64,000 nt of DNA from Phaeobacter porticola (lineage in GTDB: Bacteria > Pseudomonadota > Alphaproteobacteria > Rhodobacterales > Rhodobacteraceae): the NCBI RefSeq assembly GCF_001888185.1, contig NZ_CP016364.1:62001-126000 (forward strand), read 5' to 3'. Positions 58,620 to 64,000 of the stretch are shown here, in pieces; the stretch's first letter is position 1, and every line of letters begins with the position of its first letter. The position numbers and the translations under genes are program-made. The notes below the pieces were generated by a model. That model was not told where the DNA came from. It made no database searches and saw nothing but the letters and a program-made list of their open reading frames with translations.

Positions 58620-59381
58620 TTACAGGCTGGCGCGGCGGCTGCGCGACAGGGTGACATCGCGCAGGGTCACCTGGTTCATTTCAGGAGCTTCAAAGATCAG
58701 CTCAAGCCAGAGCCGTTCTACCCGCTTTTCGTTCAGCTCGGCGTAGGCGAGATCGTATTCAACATGGGTCCGTTTGCTGCCCATTGGCATCTCGCGCACC
58801 AGCTGTTCGGTGTTGGGGCCGTGTTTGATATTGAGTCGGGCAAAAATCTCGATCGGGTTTTCGGTTTCCAGCGTGCAATCGACCCGCAGCAGGTGGTCTC
58901 TGCTTAATCCATCAGTCACCTCCGCAGGGAGTTCGATGACCAGGGACAGGAAAGAACCGTCAAATCGAAACACATCCAGCCGAACGCCGTAAGGCGCGAG
59001 GTCTTCGTCACGGTTGTTTCGCAACTGACGCAGGGTCAGCTCTGAGACGGTGCAGTCGTGGAACAGCTGCACCTCGTCGCCCAAGCGCGTTTTACTGGAA
59101 ACAGAAGAGGCACCGGGAACGGGCAGGGGCCCGCGCCACAGTTCTGGTCGCCAGCCCCAATCGGTGCCATGCGGGCGTGGAAAGGCGTTGGACCCGATCT
59201 GAGGAAGCGCCAACCGCCCCTCGGCGATATGGATCAGCCGGTCCAGATGAAAGCGCAGCTTTCGGGCGCGGTTGCGCTGGTCCCGCAAACGGCTGAGCGG
59301 GGCTTTGTGGGCCTGCTGTGCAAGCCGGCGCCAACGTTCCAATACGCGCGCGAATAGCAGTTTTTCGACGATCCTGCCCAT
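58620..59381 (-). CDS. DUF6478-like protein of unknown function
   Basis: A 253-residue protein seen mainly in Rhodobacteraceae. The N-terminal ~60 residues are basic and helical (RVLERWRRLAQQAHKAPLS, RNRARKLRFHLDRL). The conserved core is LPQIGSNAFPRPHGTDWGWRP, split here as QIGSNAFPRPHGTDW and WRPELWRGPL, which is recognisable from other roseobacters. The remainder is beta-rich. I choose the ATG at 59381; the only earlier start is a TTG at 59486, in a low-conservation extension. It precedes the 125-residue hypothetical. No enzymatic motif is visible. Confidence 0.75.
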   Translation of the reverse strand: MGRIVEKLLFARVLERWRRLAQQAHKAPLSRLRDQRNRARKLRFHLDRLIHIAEGRLALPQIGSNAFPRPHGTDWGWRPELWRGPLPVPGASSVSSKTRLGDEVQLFHDCTVSELTLRQLRNNRDEDLAPYGVRLDVFRFDGSFLSLVIELPAEVTDGLSRDHLLRVDCTLETENPIEIFARLNIKHGPNTEQLVREMPMGSKRTHVEYDLAYAELNEKRVERLWLELIFEAPEMNQVTLRDVTLSRSRRASL

Positions 59382-59542
59382 GGGCTCAATATCCTTGGTG
59401 CGCGATACGATAACCGGCGTGAAACCGGGAACTCGTGGCGGCCTCTTTGTTTTCTTGACCCTACCCAATGCGCGGTCCGCTGACAAATCCTCTCACGAAT
59501 GTTCGGCTAGCCCATACGTGCGGACACCGGAGAGACGGGGTG

Positions 59543-60537: not shown

Positions 60538-63500
60538 ATGAAATCCACCCTGTTTTCATTCATCTGGACCTATTCACGGCGCCAGCAAATAGGTCTGTTG
60601 GCCCTGACGGTGGTCACATTTCCGTTTCTATTCGCCGCGTTGGAATTGCCAAAACGGATCATTAACGATGCGATCGGTGCCCCGATGGACCGCATCGTCG
60701 TCCTGGGGCAGGAAATCGGCCAGGTCGATTATCTCCTGCTTTTGTGTTGTGGGTTTCTTGCTGCCGTCATGATCAGTGGCCTGCTGAAAATGCGACTCAA
60801 CACGATGAAGGGTGTTGTTGCCGAGCGCCTATTGCGGCGTCTGCGCTATACGCTGATCAGCCGTATGATGCGCTTTCCGACCCCCTATTTCCGCACCACC
60901 AGTCAGGGTGAGATGGTGTCAATGATCACCTCTGAGTCTGAACCTATGGGGGGGCTGATGGGCGATGCCGTTGCGCAACCTGTATTTCAGGCCGGGCAGA
61001 TGCTGACGATTGTCACCTTCTTGTTCATGCAAAGCGTTTGGTTCGGCCTGGCCTCGGTTGCGCTGATCCCGCTTCAGGCGTGGTTGATCCCGATGCTGCA
61101 ACGTCAAATCAACTTGCTAAACAAGGATCGCATCCAAGAGGTCCGGGCATTGTCAGCCGAAATCGGTGAAACAGCGGCTGGCATTAGCGATCTGCGTATC
61201 AACGGCGGGCGCCGCTATCGGTTGGCGCAGATTTCCGCGCGTCTGGGGCGGTTGTTCGACATTCGGCGACGGATTTATTCCAAAAAATACTTCATGAAGT
61301 TCCTCAACAACATGATCGGCCACCTGACGCCCTTCGTGTTTTATTCGGCGGGTGGCGTATTGGCGATCCGGGGCGATATCACCGTGGGGGCGCTCGTGGC
61401 CGCGCTGGCAGCTTACAAGGATCTGTCTGCCCCCTGGCGCGAGCTTTTGACCTATTACAATCAGGTGCAGGACATGAGTCTGCGCTGGTCGATCATGACT
61501 GAGCGGTTTGCACCCAAAGGCATGATCGCGGAGGAGTTGATCGTCGGCACGCCTGCCGACATTCCGCATCTGCGCGGTGCGATCGAATTGCGCAATGTGT
61601 CAGTCAAGGATGCTGACGGCAACATGGTGCTGGAGGATCTGTCCCTGGCCATCCCTGCCGGTGGGCGCGTCGCGATCCAAAGCAGCAGCGAAGCCGAGCG
61701 CGCGGCATTTGCGGCCCTGTTGACGCGCGAGGTGTTGCCTGCCCGTGGGTCCGTGACGATAGCGGGCCATCGGCTAGATCAGTTGCATCAGGGCGTTATT
61801 GCAGCGCGCGTGGGCTATGCCTATTCGCGGCCGTATCTCTTTAACGGCTCGCTCGGGGATAATGTGTTAATGTCCTTGCGCGATCAGCCCCATATGCCGC
61901 CGGGTGCTGAAACAAGGGGGCAAAGCCGCACCATGACGGAAGCCTGTCGTGCGGGTAATAGTCCAGATTCGCTTGCGGCAGACTGGATCAACCCGGCTTT
62001 GGCTGGCTTGGGGTCGGAAAGCGAGCTGCGCGACTGGTGGTTCCAGCTGGTCGAGGCTATGGGCATCGACGAGCAATTGTTCCGCCGTACCTTGCACACG
62101 CGGTTCCAGATCGGCCCACATCTGGGGCTTGTGCAACAGATCGTATCGCTGCGTCCGAAAATTGCCGAGCGCCTGCAACAGGCTGGCCTTGCAGATGTGG
62201 TGAACCGGTTTGACCCGGATGTGTTTAATCCGGCGGTTCCCTTGGGGGGGAACATCCTGTTTGCCGCCCCAACCCGCGCCATTGCGCCCGAAGAACTGAT
62301 TGCCGCTGACGGGCCGATTGTCAGCGCATTGCGAAACAATGGGCTACAGGATGACGTGATCGCCTTTGGCCTGAGCGTGATGGAAACCTTGCAGCAGACC
62401 TTTGGCCGGGTTGATACGAACCACCCGTTGTTTAAGCGGCTTGGCCTTGATGAGGCACTATATCAGCGCATCGCCGAGGTCGCTGATCGGCAGGCCACCC
62501 TTGGCGTGGCAGGCTTGCGGGAGGATGAGCGGGTACTGTTGGCGTCGGTGCCGTTTCTGATCTCCGAAGAGCAGATCGGCACGCCTTTTCCCGAGCGTTT
62601 CAAGCGCCGCATTTTGGACATTCGGCGCGACAGTGGACCCGCTTTGCAGGCGCAATTGGGCGATCTCTTTATCCCGATTACACCGGATGCCTATTTTCCA
62701 CGGCTGACAGTGCTGGAAAACGTGCTTTATGGCCGTCTGTCGCTGATGGCAGGGGCCAAGGCCAAGCAGGTCGAAGATCTTGTTGCTGAGGTGCTAGAAG
62801 AGAATGGGTTGCGCAAGCGATTGGCGCTAATCCTCTATGACTTGCCCGCAGGCCTTGGCGGCACTGCGTTGGAACCGGTGTTTCAGGAGCGTGCCGCCTT
62901 TACCCGCGCGGCGATCAAGCGGCCTGATATCCTGATCCTGGATCGCGCGTTGGCAAGCCATGACAGCGCCAGCCGGTTGCAGTCGCGCGACCGGTTGGCC
63001 AAGCTGATGCCGCATGCCACAATGCTGTTTATCGAAGACCAGTTCAATCACCCGGACCGCTATGATCTTTTTGTGAAAATTAGCAACGGCCGTATTGACG
63101 GCGTGGAAGGCGAGCTGACCGAACCCACAGAGAAAATCGCGGGTAGCGATTTGGGCAAGCGGCTGGAATTGATTCAGAGCACCGAGCTGTTTGCACAGCT
63201 GGATGCCCGCAACCAGCGCCTGCTTGCTTTCTCGGCGCGTTGGCATGATGTGGTCAAGGGCGACTATGTGTTTCAGTCTGGAGAAAGCGCCGATGCCGTG
63301 TTTCTCTGCTTAAGCGGCAAAGCCGATTTGTTCTGGCCGGGTAGCGACCTAAACGCCAATCCGATTTCTCAGATTGAGCCGGGACGTCTGATTGGCGATC
63401 TTGCGGTAATTTTGCGTGACACAAGGCAGCTGGACTTATTTGCGGTGGAAGATTGTAGTTTTCTAAGGATCGGCGCTGAGGAATATCGTGCGGTGATCGA

Positions 63501-63666
63501 ATCTGACTCCGGTGTTGCGGTGCAGTTGCTTGAAACCGTTGCACGGCATTTGGTGCAGACCGCAGGGGTGGCGCGGGCCGCGAAACAGAACGTTGCGGAC
63601 AGTGACCGGCTTTCGATGGCCGCAGCCCTGCCAGATACAATGGAGCAGGCCGACAATGTCCACTGA
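60538..63666 (+). CDS. ABC exporter-like protein with degenerate ATPase and C-terminal cyclic-nucleotide-binding-like domain
   Basis: A 1,042-residue protein. Residues 1-330 form an ABC transporter type-1 membrane domain (six helices; ERLLRRLRYTLISRMMRFP coupling region). An NBD-like domain begins near 348, but Walker A reads GGRVAIQSSSEAERAA (376-391) with no GK[ST], and a ~270-residue insert (about 447-717) separates the Q-loop-like YSRPYLFNGSLGDNV from the rest. The signature is degenerate (EPVFQERAAFTRA), Walker B reads DILILDRALASHD with R803 where Glu is expected, and the H-loop is lost (TMLFIEDQFNH). Residues ~880-1010 resemble a cNMP domain (GDLAVILRDTRQ cassette). The ATG at 60538 follows a strong GGAG. 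Confidence 0.88.
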   Translation: MKSTLFSFIWTYSRRQQIGLLALTVVTFPFLFAALELPKRIINDAIGAPMDRIVVLGQEIGQVDYLLLLCCGFLAAVMISGLLKMRLNTMKGVVAERLLRRLRYTLISRMMRFPTPYFRTTSQGEMVSMITSESEPMGGLMGDAVAQPVFQAGQMLTIVTFLFMQSVWFGLASVALIPLQAWLIPMLQRQINLLNKDRIQEVRALSAEIGETAAGISDLRINGGRRYRLAQISARLGRLFDIRRRIYSKKYFMKFLNNMIGHLTPFVFYSAGGVLAIRGDITVGALVAALAAYKDLSAPWRELLTYYNQVQDMSLRWSIMTERFAPKGMIAEELIVGTPADIPHLRGAIELRNVSVKDADGNMVLEDLSLAIPAGGRVAIQSSSEAERAAFAALLTREVLPARGSVTIAGHRLDQLHQGVIAARVGYAYSRPYLFNGSLGDNVLMSLRDQPHMPPGAETRGQSRTMTEACRAGNSPDSLAADWINPALAGLGSESELRDWWFQLVEAMGIDEQLFRRTLHTRFQIGPHLGLVQQIVSLRPKIAERLQQAGLADVVNRFDPDVFNPAVPLGGNILFAAPTRAIAPEELIAADGPIVSALRNNGLQDDVIAFGLSVMETLQQTFGRVDTNHPLFKRLGLDEALYQRIAEVADRQATLGVAGLREDERVLLASVPFLISEEQIGTPFPERFKRRILDIRRDSGPALQAQLGDLFIPITPDAYFPRLTVLENVLYGRLSLMAGAKAKQVEDLVAEVLEENGLRKRLALILYDLPAGLGGTALEPVFQERAAFTRAAIKRPDILILDRALASHDSASRLQSRDRLAKLMPHATMLFIEDQFNHPDRYDLFVKISNGRIDGVEGELTEPTEKIAGSDLGKRLELIQSTELFAQLDARNQRLLAFSARWHDVVKGDYVFQSGESADAVFLCLSGKADLFWPGSDLNANPISQIEPGRLIGDLAVILRDTRQLDLFAVEDCSFLRIGAEEYRAVIESDSGVAVQLLETVARHLVQTAGVARAAKQNVADSDRLSMAAALPDTMEQADNVH

Positions 63667-64000
63667 CACCGCTTACGTTGCTCATGCACAATTGGTTGAG
63701 GCGGCGCGGCAAAGACCGCAGATATGGCGGCTTCTATTGGGGCTGCTTTTGGTCGTGGTGCTCAGCTATGCGGGCACCAATGTGACAGTGCGATTGCTGA
63801 TCGTTGCCTTCCCTGGCGATTGGATCGGCGATCTGCCTACAGGCAAAACGCCGATTGCGATGTTCGTCCTGCTTGGCAGCTTCCTGTTTGTGACTTGCGC
63901 GGTTGCCTTCGTTCTACCATTTTTGCACCGTCGCAGTCTTGCCAGTTTGATTGGCCCGTTCCATCTGGCCGTGTATCAGTTTCTGCGGACTGGCGCTGGC
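63656..64000 (+). CDS. CPBP-family (CAAX-type) intramembrane protease, partial
   Basis: The ATG at 63656 lies inside the end of the ABC/CNB gene (11-base overlap), and the frame stays open for 115 codons to the window end. It shows two hydrophobic helices (about 25-50 and 67-90) separated by a loop with GDWIGDLPTGKTP, and ends LIGPFHLAVYQFLRTGAG. The N-terminal layout, especially the segment ending IGPFHLAVYQFLR, resembles roseobacter CPBP membrane endopeptidases; the catalytic EExxxR and later FxxxH motifs lie beyond the window. The overlap implies translational coupling to the ABC/CNB protein. Confidence 0.6.
   Translation, partial: MSTDTAYVAHAQLVEAARQRPQIWRLLLGLLLVVVLSYAGTNVTVRLLIVAFPGDWIGDLPTGKTPIAMFVLLGSFLFVTCAVAFVLPFLHRRSLASLIGPFHLAVYQFLRTGAG

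Follow-up and report, generated by a model that had tools for sequence, protein, structure and literature searches.

An ABC exporter-like membrane protein of Phaeobacter porticola and its relatives that lacks the ATP-handling motifs and carries a cNMP-type domain

Introduction

The ATP-handling motifs of ATP-binding cassette (ABC) exporters are named Walker A, Q-loop, signature, Walker B, and H-loop, and exporters in which one ATP site is dead are well known. Here, we describe copy A, a gene in a 64,000-nucleotide stretch of Phaeobacter porticola DNA (contig NZ_CP016364.1, positions 62,001 to 126,000 of the forward strand; hereafter, the window), which encodes an exporter-like membrane protein in which these motifs are gone. 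With type-I ABC exporters such as MsbA, ABCB10, TM287/288, and TmrAB, the protein shares the PF00664 membrane domain and a modeled nucleotide-binding domain (NBD) fold. It differs from them in lacking the ATP motifs, save for the Walker B Asp in most of the sequences that we aligned, and in adding a ~255-residue insert, best explained by duplication, and a fused cyclic nucleotide (cNMP)-type domain. In TM287/288, TmrAB, CFTR, and TAP, according to a review, one ATP site is degenerate and the other canonical (PMC7756269). Loss of the catalytic Glu and of the H-loop His is common to such exporters and to copy A, whereas here both copy A and its paralogue B are motif-less.

Two further systems come close. 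HetC is an exporter whose N-terminal cNMP-type domain reportedly binds guanosine tetraphosphate (ppGpp), not cyclic AMP (cAMP), and is needed in vivo; the protein has an active peptidase and requires an ATPase residue (PMC10986499). Copy A resembles HetC in having a cNMP-type domain within an ABC exporter but differs in its C-terminal placement from a protein with an N-terminal domain, a needed ATPase residue, and an active peptidase. Since the HetC domain is reported to bind ppGpp, the ligand of a cNMP-type domain can be another nucleotide. MsbA2 (SMb21191) of Sinorhizobium meliloti is encoded in an operon with two glycosyltransferases and is proposed to export polysaccharide (PMC3687685 and PMC12239276). 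It shares the setting of an ABC exporter beside glycosyltransferases with what we call the wider family of copy A, namely ABC proteins of ~900 amino acids (aa), mainly alphaproteobacterial, in which the motifs are partly retained.

In one open paper library, word searches found no description of this ABC family or of a conserved pair whose members have both lost the ATP motifs. Such a pair would offer a direct test of whether the ABC membrane fold works without ATP hydrolysis, and the ties of the wider family to a cNMP-domain protein and to a glycosyltransferase cluster provide a handle on a putative surface glycan.

Results and Discussion

Loss of the ATP-handling motifs in a maintained gene

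The layout of copy A in the window is as follows.

60538..63666, + strand: copy A, whole gene, 1042 aa, ATG start, no internal stop
60538..61542, + strand: type-I ABC exporter membrane domain (PF00664), residues 1-335
61567..61911, + strand: NBD first half, residues 344-458, with the dead Walker A and the first Q-loop-like element; fold modeled
61660-61707, + strand: dead Walker A
Residues 425-449, within the NBD first half: first Q-loop-like element
61912..62670, + strand: insert, residues 459-711, a probable internal duplication (hhalign and model)
62185-62268, + strand: second Q-loop-like element, in the insert, about residues 550-577
62671..63117, + strand: NBD second half, residues 712-860, with the third Q-loop-like element, signature, Walker B, and H-loop; fold modeled
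Residues about 716-733, within the NBD second half: third Q-loop-like element
62872-62910, + strand: dead signature
62932-62952, + strand: Walker B, Asp retained and Glu gone
63019-63051, + strand: H-loop without His
63142..63567, + strand: C-terminal cNMP-type domain (PF00027), residues 869-1010
63391-63438, + strand: phosphate-binding cassette of the cNMP-type domain, IGDLAVILRDTRQLDL

The membrane domain is normal, as the initial annotation had stated from the sequence of the window: PF00664 (ABC_membrane) matched residues 63-290 (E = 6.7e-20; 72.3 bits versus a cut-off of 28). At the other end, PF00027 (cNMP_binding) matched residues 906-990 (E = 8.5e-11; 42.1 bits versus a cut-off of 27.5). 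For the NBD, where a profile check had been proposed, PF00005 (ABC_tran) covered the first half alone (365-458) at 21.4 bits, under its cut-off of 25. Among the best 25 of 98 NCBIfam matches, no model exceeded its own cut-off for the copy A protein.

Relatives were gathered by a scan of one genome per species; the best 80 of the 115 relatives found were used, mostly named as Rhodobacteraceae, plus Moritella and Granulosicoccus. The copy A clade is mainly found in Rhodobacteraceae, with a few gammaproteobacterial members. Once near-duplicates had been dropped, the motif table held 81 rows, made up of the window protein, two additional sequences, and 78 out of 80 fetched relatives. At the position of the Walker A Lys, R stood in 74 rows, A in 5, and S and G in one each, and that of the Walker B Glu was occupied by K in 42, R in 11, N in 10, H in 7, Q in 6, T in 4, and S in 1. 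The Q-loop Gln, the H-loop His, and the LSGG signature were each found in 0/81 rows, and the first P-loop Gly was gone in 80/81; the Walker B Asp was retained in 68/81. The joint alteration of Walker A, signature, Walker B Glu, and H-loop that the initial annotation had read from the window is therefore present, and it extends to the clade: With K, E, Q, or H in 0/81 rows, no orthologue inside the clade carried an intact GKS/T and LDE, and the loss is fixed across the copy A clade rather than local. Because the ATP motifs that define ABC exporters are lacking, we do not class copy A as a working ABC transporter.

Among the relatives, several of the motif columns are variable, as expected for unused residues, which could suggest a dispensable paralogue in slow decay. 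We consider this exceedingly improbable, since the open reading frame (ORF) was full length and uninterrupted in 80/80 fetched relatives, the gene has been retained in Gammaproteobacteria, and the ratio of nonsynonymous to synonymous substitution (dN/dS) was low in every domain. Over 15 independent close pairs of A-type genes (14 for the NBD second half), its median was 0.026 in the membrane domain, 0.060 in the NBD first half, 0.056 in the insert, 0.028 in the NBD second half, and 0.034 in the cNMP domain; the membrane domain and the second NBD half hence gave the lowest values. Copy A is under strong purifying selection, and the view of a maintained, not decayed, gene stands. In the membrane domain, the best conserved part, the relatives average 76% identity to copy A, and start codons over 83 A-type loci were ATG (76), GTG (6), and TTG (1). 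The Moritella genome of locus L079 holds an additional copy (G887:C40:780366-781694) with an open frame of just 467 aa, which comprises the membrane domain and the first NBD half and covers profile positions 1-465.

Fold of the NBD and origin of the insert

In an AlphaFold2 model of copy A residues 344-862 [predicted local distance difference test (pLDDT), 87.8; predicted template modeling (pTM) score, 0.75], both NBD halves fold together. The model aligned with the NBD of ComA (3vx4_D) over 224 residues spread along its length (Z = 24.9; root mean square deviation, 2.5 Å), in support of the earlier proposal that an insert splits the NBD. The best Protein Data Bank sequence matches of copy A include ABCB10 (7y48_B) and TM288 (3qf4_B). 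Foldseek searches with this model and with that of the full chain gave long alignments of low template modeling score, mostly to full-length exporters, and were not used.

The insert had been placed at about residues 447-717 and described as matching no recognized family. Its presence was confirmed and its extent was refined to about 459-711, ~255 residues (the segment 461-716 is 251 to 272 residues long across 82 aligned rows), but the absence of any kinship was not supported. A conserved Asn precedes hydrophobic residues in each of three stretches that resemble one another by eye (about 430-449, 560-577, and 716-733). In hhalign comparisons of 32 wider-family proteins, the second and third stretches matched over 82 columns (E = 2.9e-15; probability, 98.5%), while the first matched the third at E = 4.5e-5 (69%) and the second at E = 3e-4 (40%), resembling them over short or weak parts only. 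Within the copy A clade, the match of second to third was weaker (E = 5.5e-4; probability, 30%; this is the second-best match, the best being the overlap of the two cut segments). A repeat test of the second against the third element in single proteins, with 200 shuffles, gave z = 6.4 to 18.3 for 31/32 wider-family proteins and 3.1 for the remaining one (L102), compared to 4.7 for the window protein, 1.0 for L014, and 1.6 for L002, the P. porticola paralogue B. As the repeat is faint inside A and B, it is the wider family, the profiles, and the model that make the case for duplication. Within this model, a succession of strand, short helix, and strand recurs at model positions 82-109, 212-235, and 368-391, and the rest forms a complete NBD. 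From the profile repeats, the recurring model elements, and the completeness of the rest, the most fitting view of the insert is that of an extended helical subdomain that probably grew by internal duplication of the Q-loop/helical stretch of the same NBD. A foreign domain was also considered and set aside: Pfam was blank over the insert, and the solved structures gave just three matches (E = 0.52 to 0.62), none of them convincing.

Paralogue B and the wider family

The P. porticola genome encodes a second such protein.

C1:2999565-3002588, - strand: paralogue B (L002/L090)

B is ~50% identical to A and likewise motif-less: Over seven rows, R replaces the Walker A Lys in 7/7, and the catalytic Glu is found in 0/7. 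The initial annotation had suggested, as an alternative, that the protein pairs with an active NBD encoded elsewhere. We found no evidence for such pairing: B, the one close relative in the genome and the candidate examined, does not supply a canonical ATP site in 7/7 rows, and the other exporters of the genome, one of which may yet be a partner, resemble copy A only weakly. With both paralogues motif-less, no canonical ATP site can be built from A, B, or the two together. Among 149 Rhodobacteraceae genomes, A and B occurred together in 22 (one with a divergent B), B alone in 4, A alone in 1, and an earlier branch alone in 4 (co-occurrence assessed by Fisher test). A:B heterodimers are plausible.

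A FastTree phylogeny of 72 proteins places A and B as sisters (support, 0.998); L100, L101, and L160 join this pair next, and 30/33 other wider-family proteins form a separate clade (0.993). L101 (L101:2851-6375, - strand) has ~100 extra residues between its membrane domain and NBD. A profile of the insert found the same segment in 130/385 Alphaproteobacteria genomes, mostly as one ~900-aa protein each, so that the wider family is common in this class. In a sample across the phylum, 30/398 genomes were positive, all of them Alphaproteobacteria; as Moritella and Granulosicoccus carry copies, this sample missed those groups. Many Rhizobium and Sinorhizobium plasmids carry members, which, among the rows listed, either lack an annotation or are labeled only as an ABC transporter of one kind or another, and no NCBIfam model exceeded its cut-off for one wider-family member (among the best 25 of 142 matches). 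We considered msbA2 as the rhizobial orthologue and rejected it: The pSymB region at 930-955 kb, which surrounds the msbA2 operon, gives only frames of 600 and 550 aa that match weakly and outside the insert, and on pSymB of strain ml46, a distinct gene of ~900 codons, with a cNMP gene of its own downstream, encodes the family member. Judged by these sequences, msbA2 and the wider-family member are apparently different genes.

The wider family keeps more of the catalytic residues. Over 60 rows, which include L100, L101, and L103, the Lys was retained in 32, the Glu in 26, the His in 19, and the signature Gln in 49. Given this retention of Lys and Glu, together with the tree, the loss arose on the way to the copy A clade. 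In the same rows, the Walker A Ser/Thr was replaced by Glu or Asp in 47 and the Walker B Asp by Asn in 35 (examples with both an acid and an Asn are L125, L158, and L137). The Walker A acid was paired with a non-Asp Walker B in 39 versus 8 of 47 rows, and the Asp was kept in 6/6 rows with a Walker A Ser/Thr (Fisher p = 0.0018, uncorrected for phylogeny, over 57 rows, with L100, L101, and L103 omitted and four rows having neither acid nor Ser/Thr). This swap looks like a charge that may have moved at the Mg2+ site.

Such covariation, the residues that the wider family retains, and the Arg in the Lys column of 74/81 A and 7/7 B rows would all suit an unorthodox ATPase, in which nucleotide is still bound and hydrolyzed at a changed site and A and B are extremes of the wider family. 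We regard this as improbable, because no A row keeps the Q-loop Gln, LSGG, Glu, or His, and the first P-loop Gly is missing from all but one.

The cNMP-type domain and the link to glycosyltransferases

The canonical phosphate-binding cassette reads G-E...R-T/S-A. Copy A departs from it in all 81 rows (window plus 80 relatives), with GD for GE in 81/81, as the initial annotation had noted for the window protein, and the Arg retained in 81/81. In B, GE and R are both present in 25/25. We inspected 25 contexts of the wider family (20 picked for spread among the alphaproteobacterial hits of the insert profile, three from Rhodobacteraceae, and two from rhizobial plasmids) and found the cNMP domain as a separate downstream gene on the same strand in 22 and fused in 3; where separate, its open frame and the ABC frame are ≤559 nucleotides apart. 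The cassette of these partners is near-canonical (G 25/25, E 23/25, and R 25/25), and the annotations of the two rhizobial ones read Crp/Fnr regulator and cyclic nucleotide-binding protein. The P. porticola genome has four above-cut-off matches to the class-III cyclase family PF00211.

Homologues of a neighboring glycosyltransferase cluster lie near the ABC gene in 18/25 of these contexts. In a worked example, two GT28-like genes (one match under cut-off), a pair of GT4 genes, and one gene for a histidine phosphatase make up the cluster, and the side facing the ABC gene carries a Methyltransf_17 gene. One GT4 enzyme was present in 123/130 genomes with the ABC family versus 3/255 without it (Alphaproteobacteria sample; E ≤ 1e-60; this and the following co-occurrence counts are uncorrected for phylogeny) and lay ≤8 kb from the ABC gene in 89/122. 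Among the 149 Rhodobacteraceae genomes, it was found in 30/31 with the family versus 5/118 without. In nine genomes reached via chosen loci, the ABC copy was present in 9/9 and the GT4 enzyme in 7/9 (E ≤ 1e-40); the genomes of L080 and L087 (Granulosicoccus) have an extra divergent ABC copy ~6 kb from the GT4 enzyme. The family is hence statistically tied to a glycosyltransferase pathway. P. porticola itself retains the cluster at 3.0195-3.0263 Mb (L222:10516-17296) without an adjoining ABC-cNMP gene. B lies 18 kb from it, and B and the glycosyltransferase are ≤42 kb apart on one contig in 9/25 B-bearing genomes. The P. porticola cluster adjoins an MscS-type channel gene and an oligopeptide-type ABC importer.

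Overall, the best reading of these sequences is that copy A is probably a maintained, ATPase-dead membrane protein, controlled by a nucleotide sensor, that serves a surface-glycan pathway; a regulated device would fit both the regularity of the cNMP partner and the tie to glycosyltransferases. The data support a history in which the Q-loop/helical segment of an ancestor was already duplicated and a cNMP-domain protein was encoded next to it; this ancestor would have given rise to a form with the cNMP domain fused, and that form to the paralogues A and B, in which all catalytic motifs are gone while sequence and modeled NBD fold are retained. As A:B or homodimers, the two may form a membrane passage or a flippase-like body for a product or lipid-linked intermediate of the glycosyltransferase cluster, with the dead NBDs serving as a dimer frame and the state being set by ligand binding to the cNMP domains instead of by ATP hydrolysis. 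Whether the ATPase-dead pair would indeed act as such a transport-like body is, in our estimate, an even call, the least sure step being that the protein itself moves a substrate instead of serving the pathway as a scaffold or regulator in the membrane.

The genes next to copy A bear on that last point.

63656..64000, + strand, running off the window: Rce1/CPBP-type membrane protease gene (PF02517, E = 1.9e-16)
58620-59486, - strand: DUF6478 gene, upstream and divergent

The likely ATG of the Rce1/CPBP-type gene (63656) overlaps the end of copy A, and this gene is the next one on the same strand in 55/81 usable A loci; DUF6478 relatives lie near 61/81. Copy A could be a regulatory scaffold or receptor that moves no cargo and whose cNMP domain senses a nucleotide, holding or switching membrane-associated glycosyltransferases or the adjacent protease. 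The overlapping protease gene, the regular cNMP partner, the glycosyltransferase link, and the loss of all ATP motifs would each agree with such a role. We nonetheless hold it to be a tentative alternative, since the membrane domain shares with the NBD second half the strongest constraint, a pattern more naturally expected of a protein that passes or flips a substrate (an argument rather than a test).

Several observations count against a nucleotide-controlled A/B pair in a glycan pathway. Copy A itself lies away from glycosyltransferases, its neighbors being the Rce1-type protease, DUF6478, and two genes that we take, by eye, to be accD and folC. Five Rhodobacteraceae genomes have the GT4 enzyme without the ABC protein, a second search also being blank, two of the nine locus-reached genomes have the ABC protein without the GT4 enzyme, and the co-occurrence counts carry no phylogenetic correction. 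The fused cassette of A is altered, with GD and with the RTA of the cassette absent. B occurs without A in four genomes, so that A:B heterodimers are not obligatory there. Last, the proposed structure prediction of the full chain was poor (pLDDT, 69; pTM, 0.43).

Start codon of paralogue B

The codon of B that aligns to the start of A was ATA in 16/25 and ATC in 9/25 copies, and 16/25 copies have no in-frame ATG, GTG, or TTG upstream within the open frame. Since ATA makes up only 37/1350 internal Ile codons of the B genes, an ordinary Ile codon would be ATA in 16/25 copies with very low probability (P = 1.6e-19, with copies treated as independent). Codons 2-16 look constrained (ratio of nonsynonymous to synonymous changes, pN/pS, 0.16), and a Shine-Dalgarno-like tetramer lies upstream in 20/25 copies (counted without a chance control). 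From these sequences, AUA or AUC appears to serve as the initiation codon of B in 25/25 copies, which makes B a rare candidate for conserved AUA/AUC initiation. The AUU starts of infC and pcnB are a precedent. Repression of an odd start codon by initiation factor IF3 is reported for sigR of Streptomyces (PMC5472188). Word searches of the open paper library found no description of the B start codon.

If all strands were combined, A and B might constitute an ATP-independent, nucleotide-gated passage or flippase for a surface glycan, derived from ancestors with a rebuilt NBD (its helical segment duplicated and the charges at its Mg2+ site shifted out of Walker B into Walker A), with the sister subunit rationed by its AUA/AUC start; taken as a whole, we consider this scheme unlikely. 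The divergent B-like copy L103 starts at ATG.

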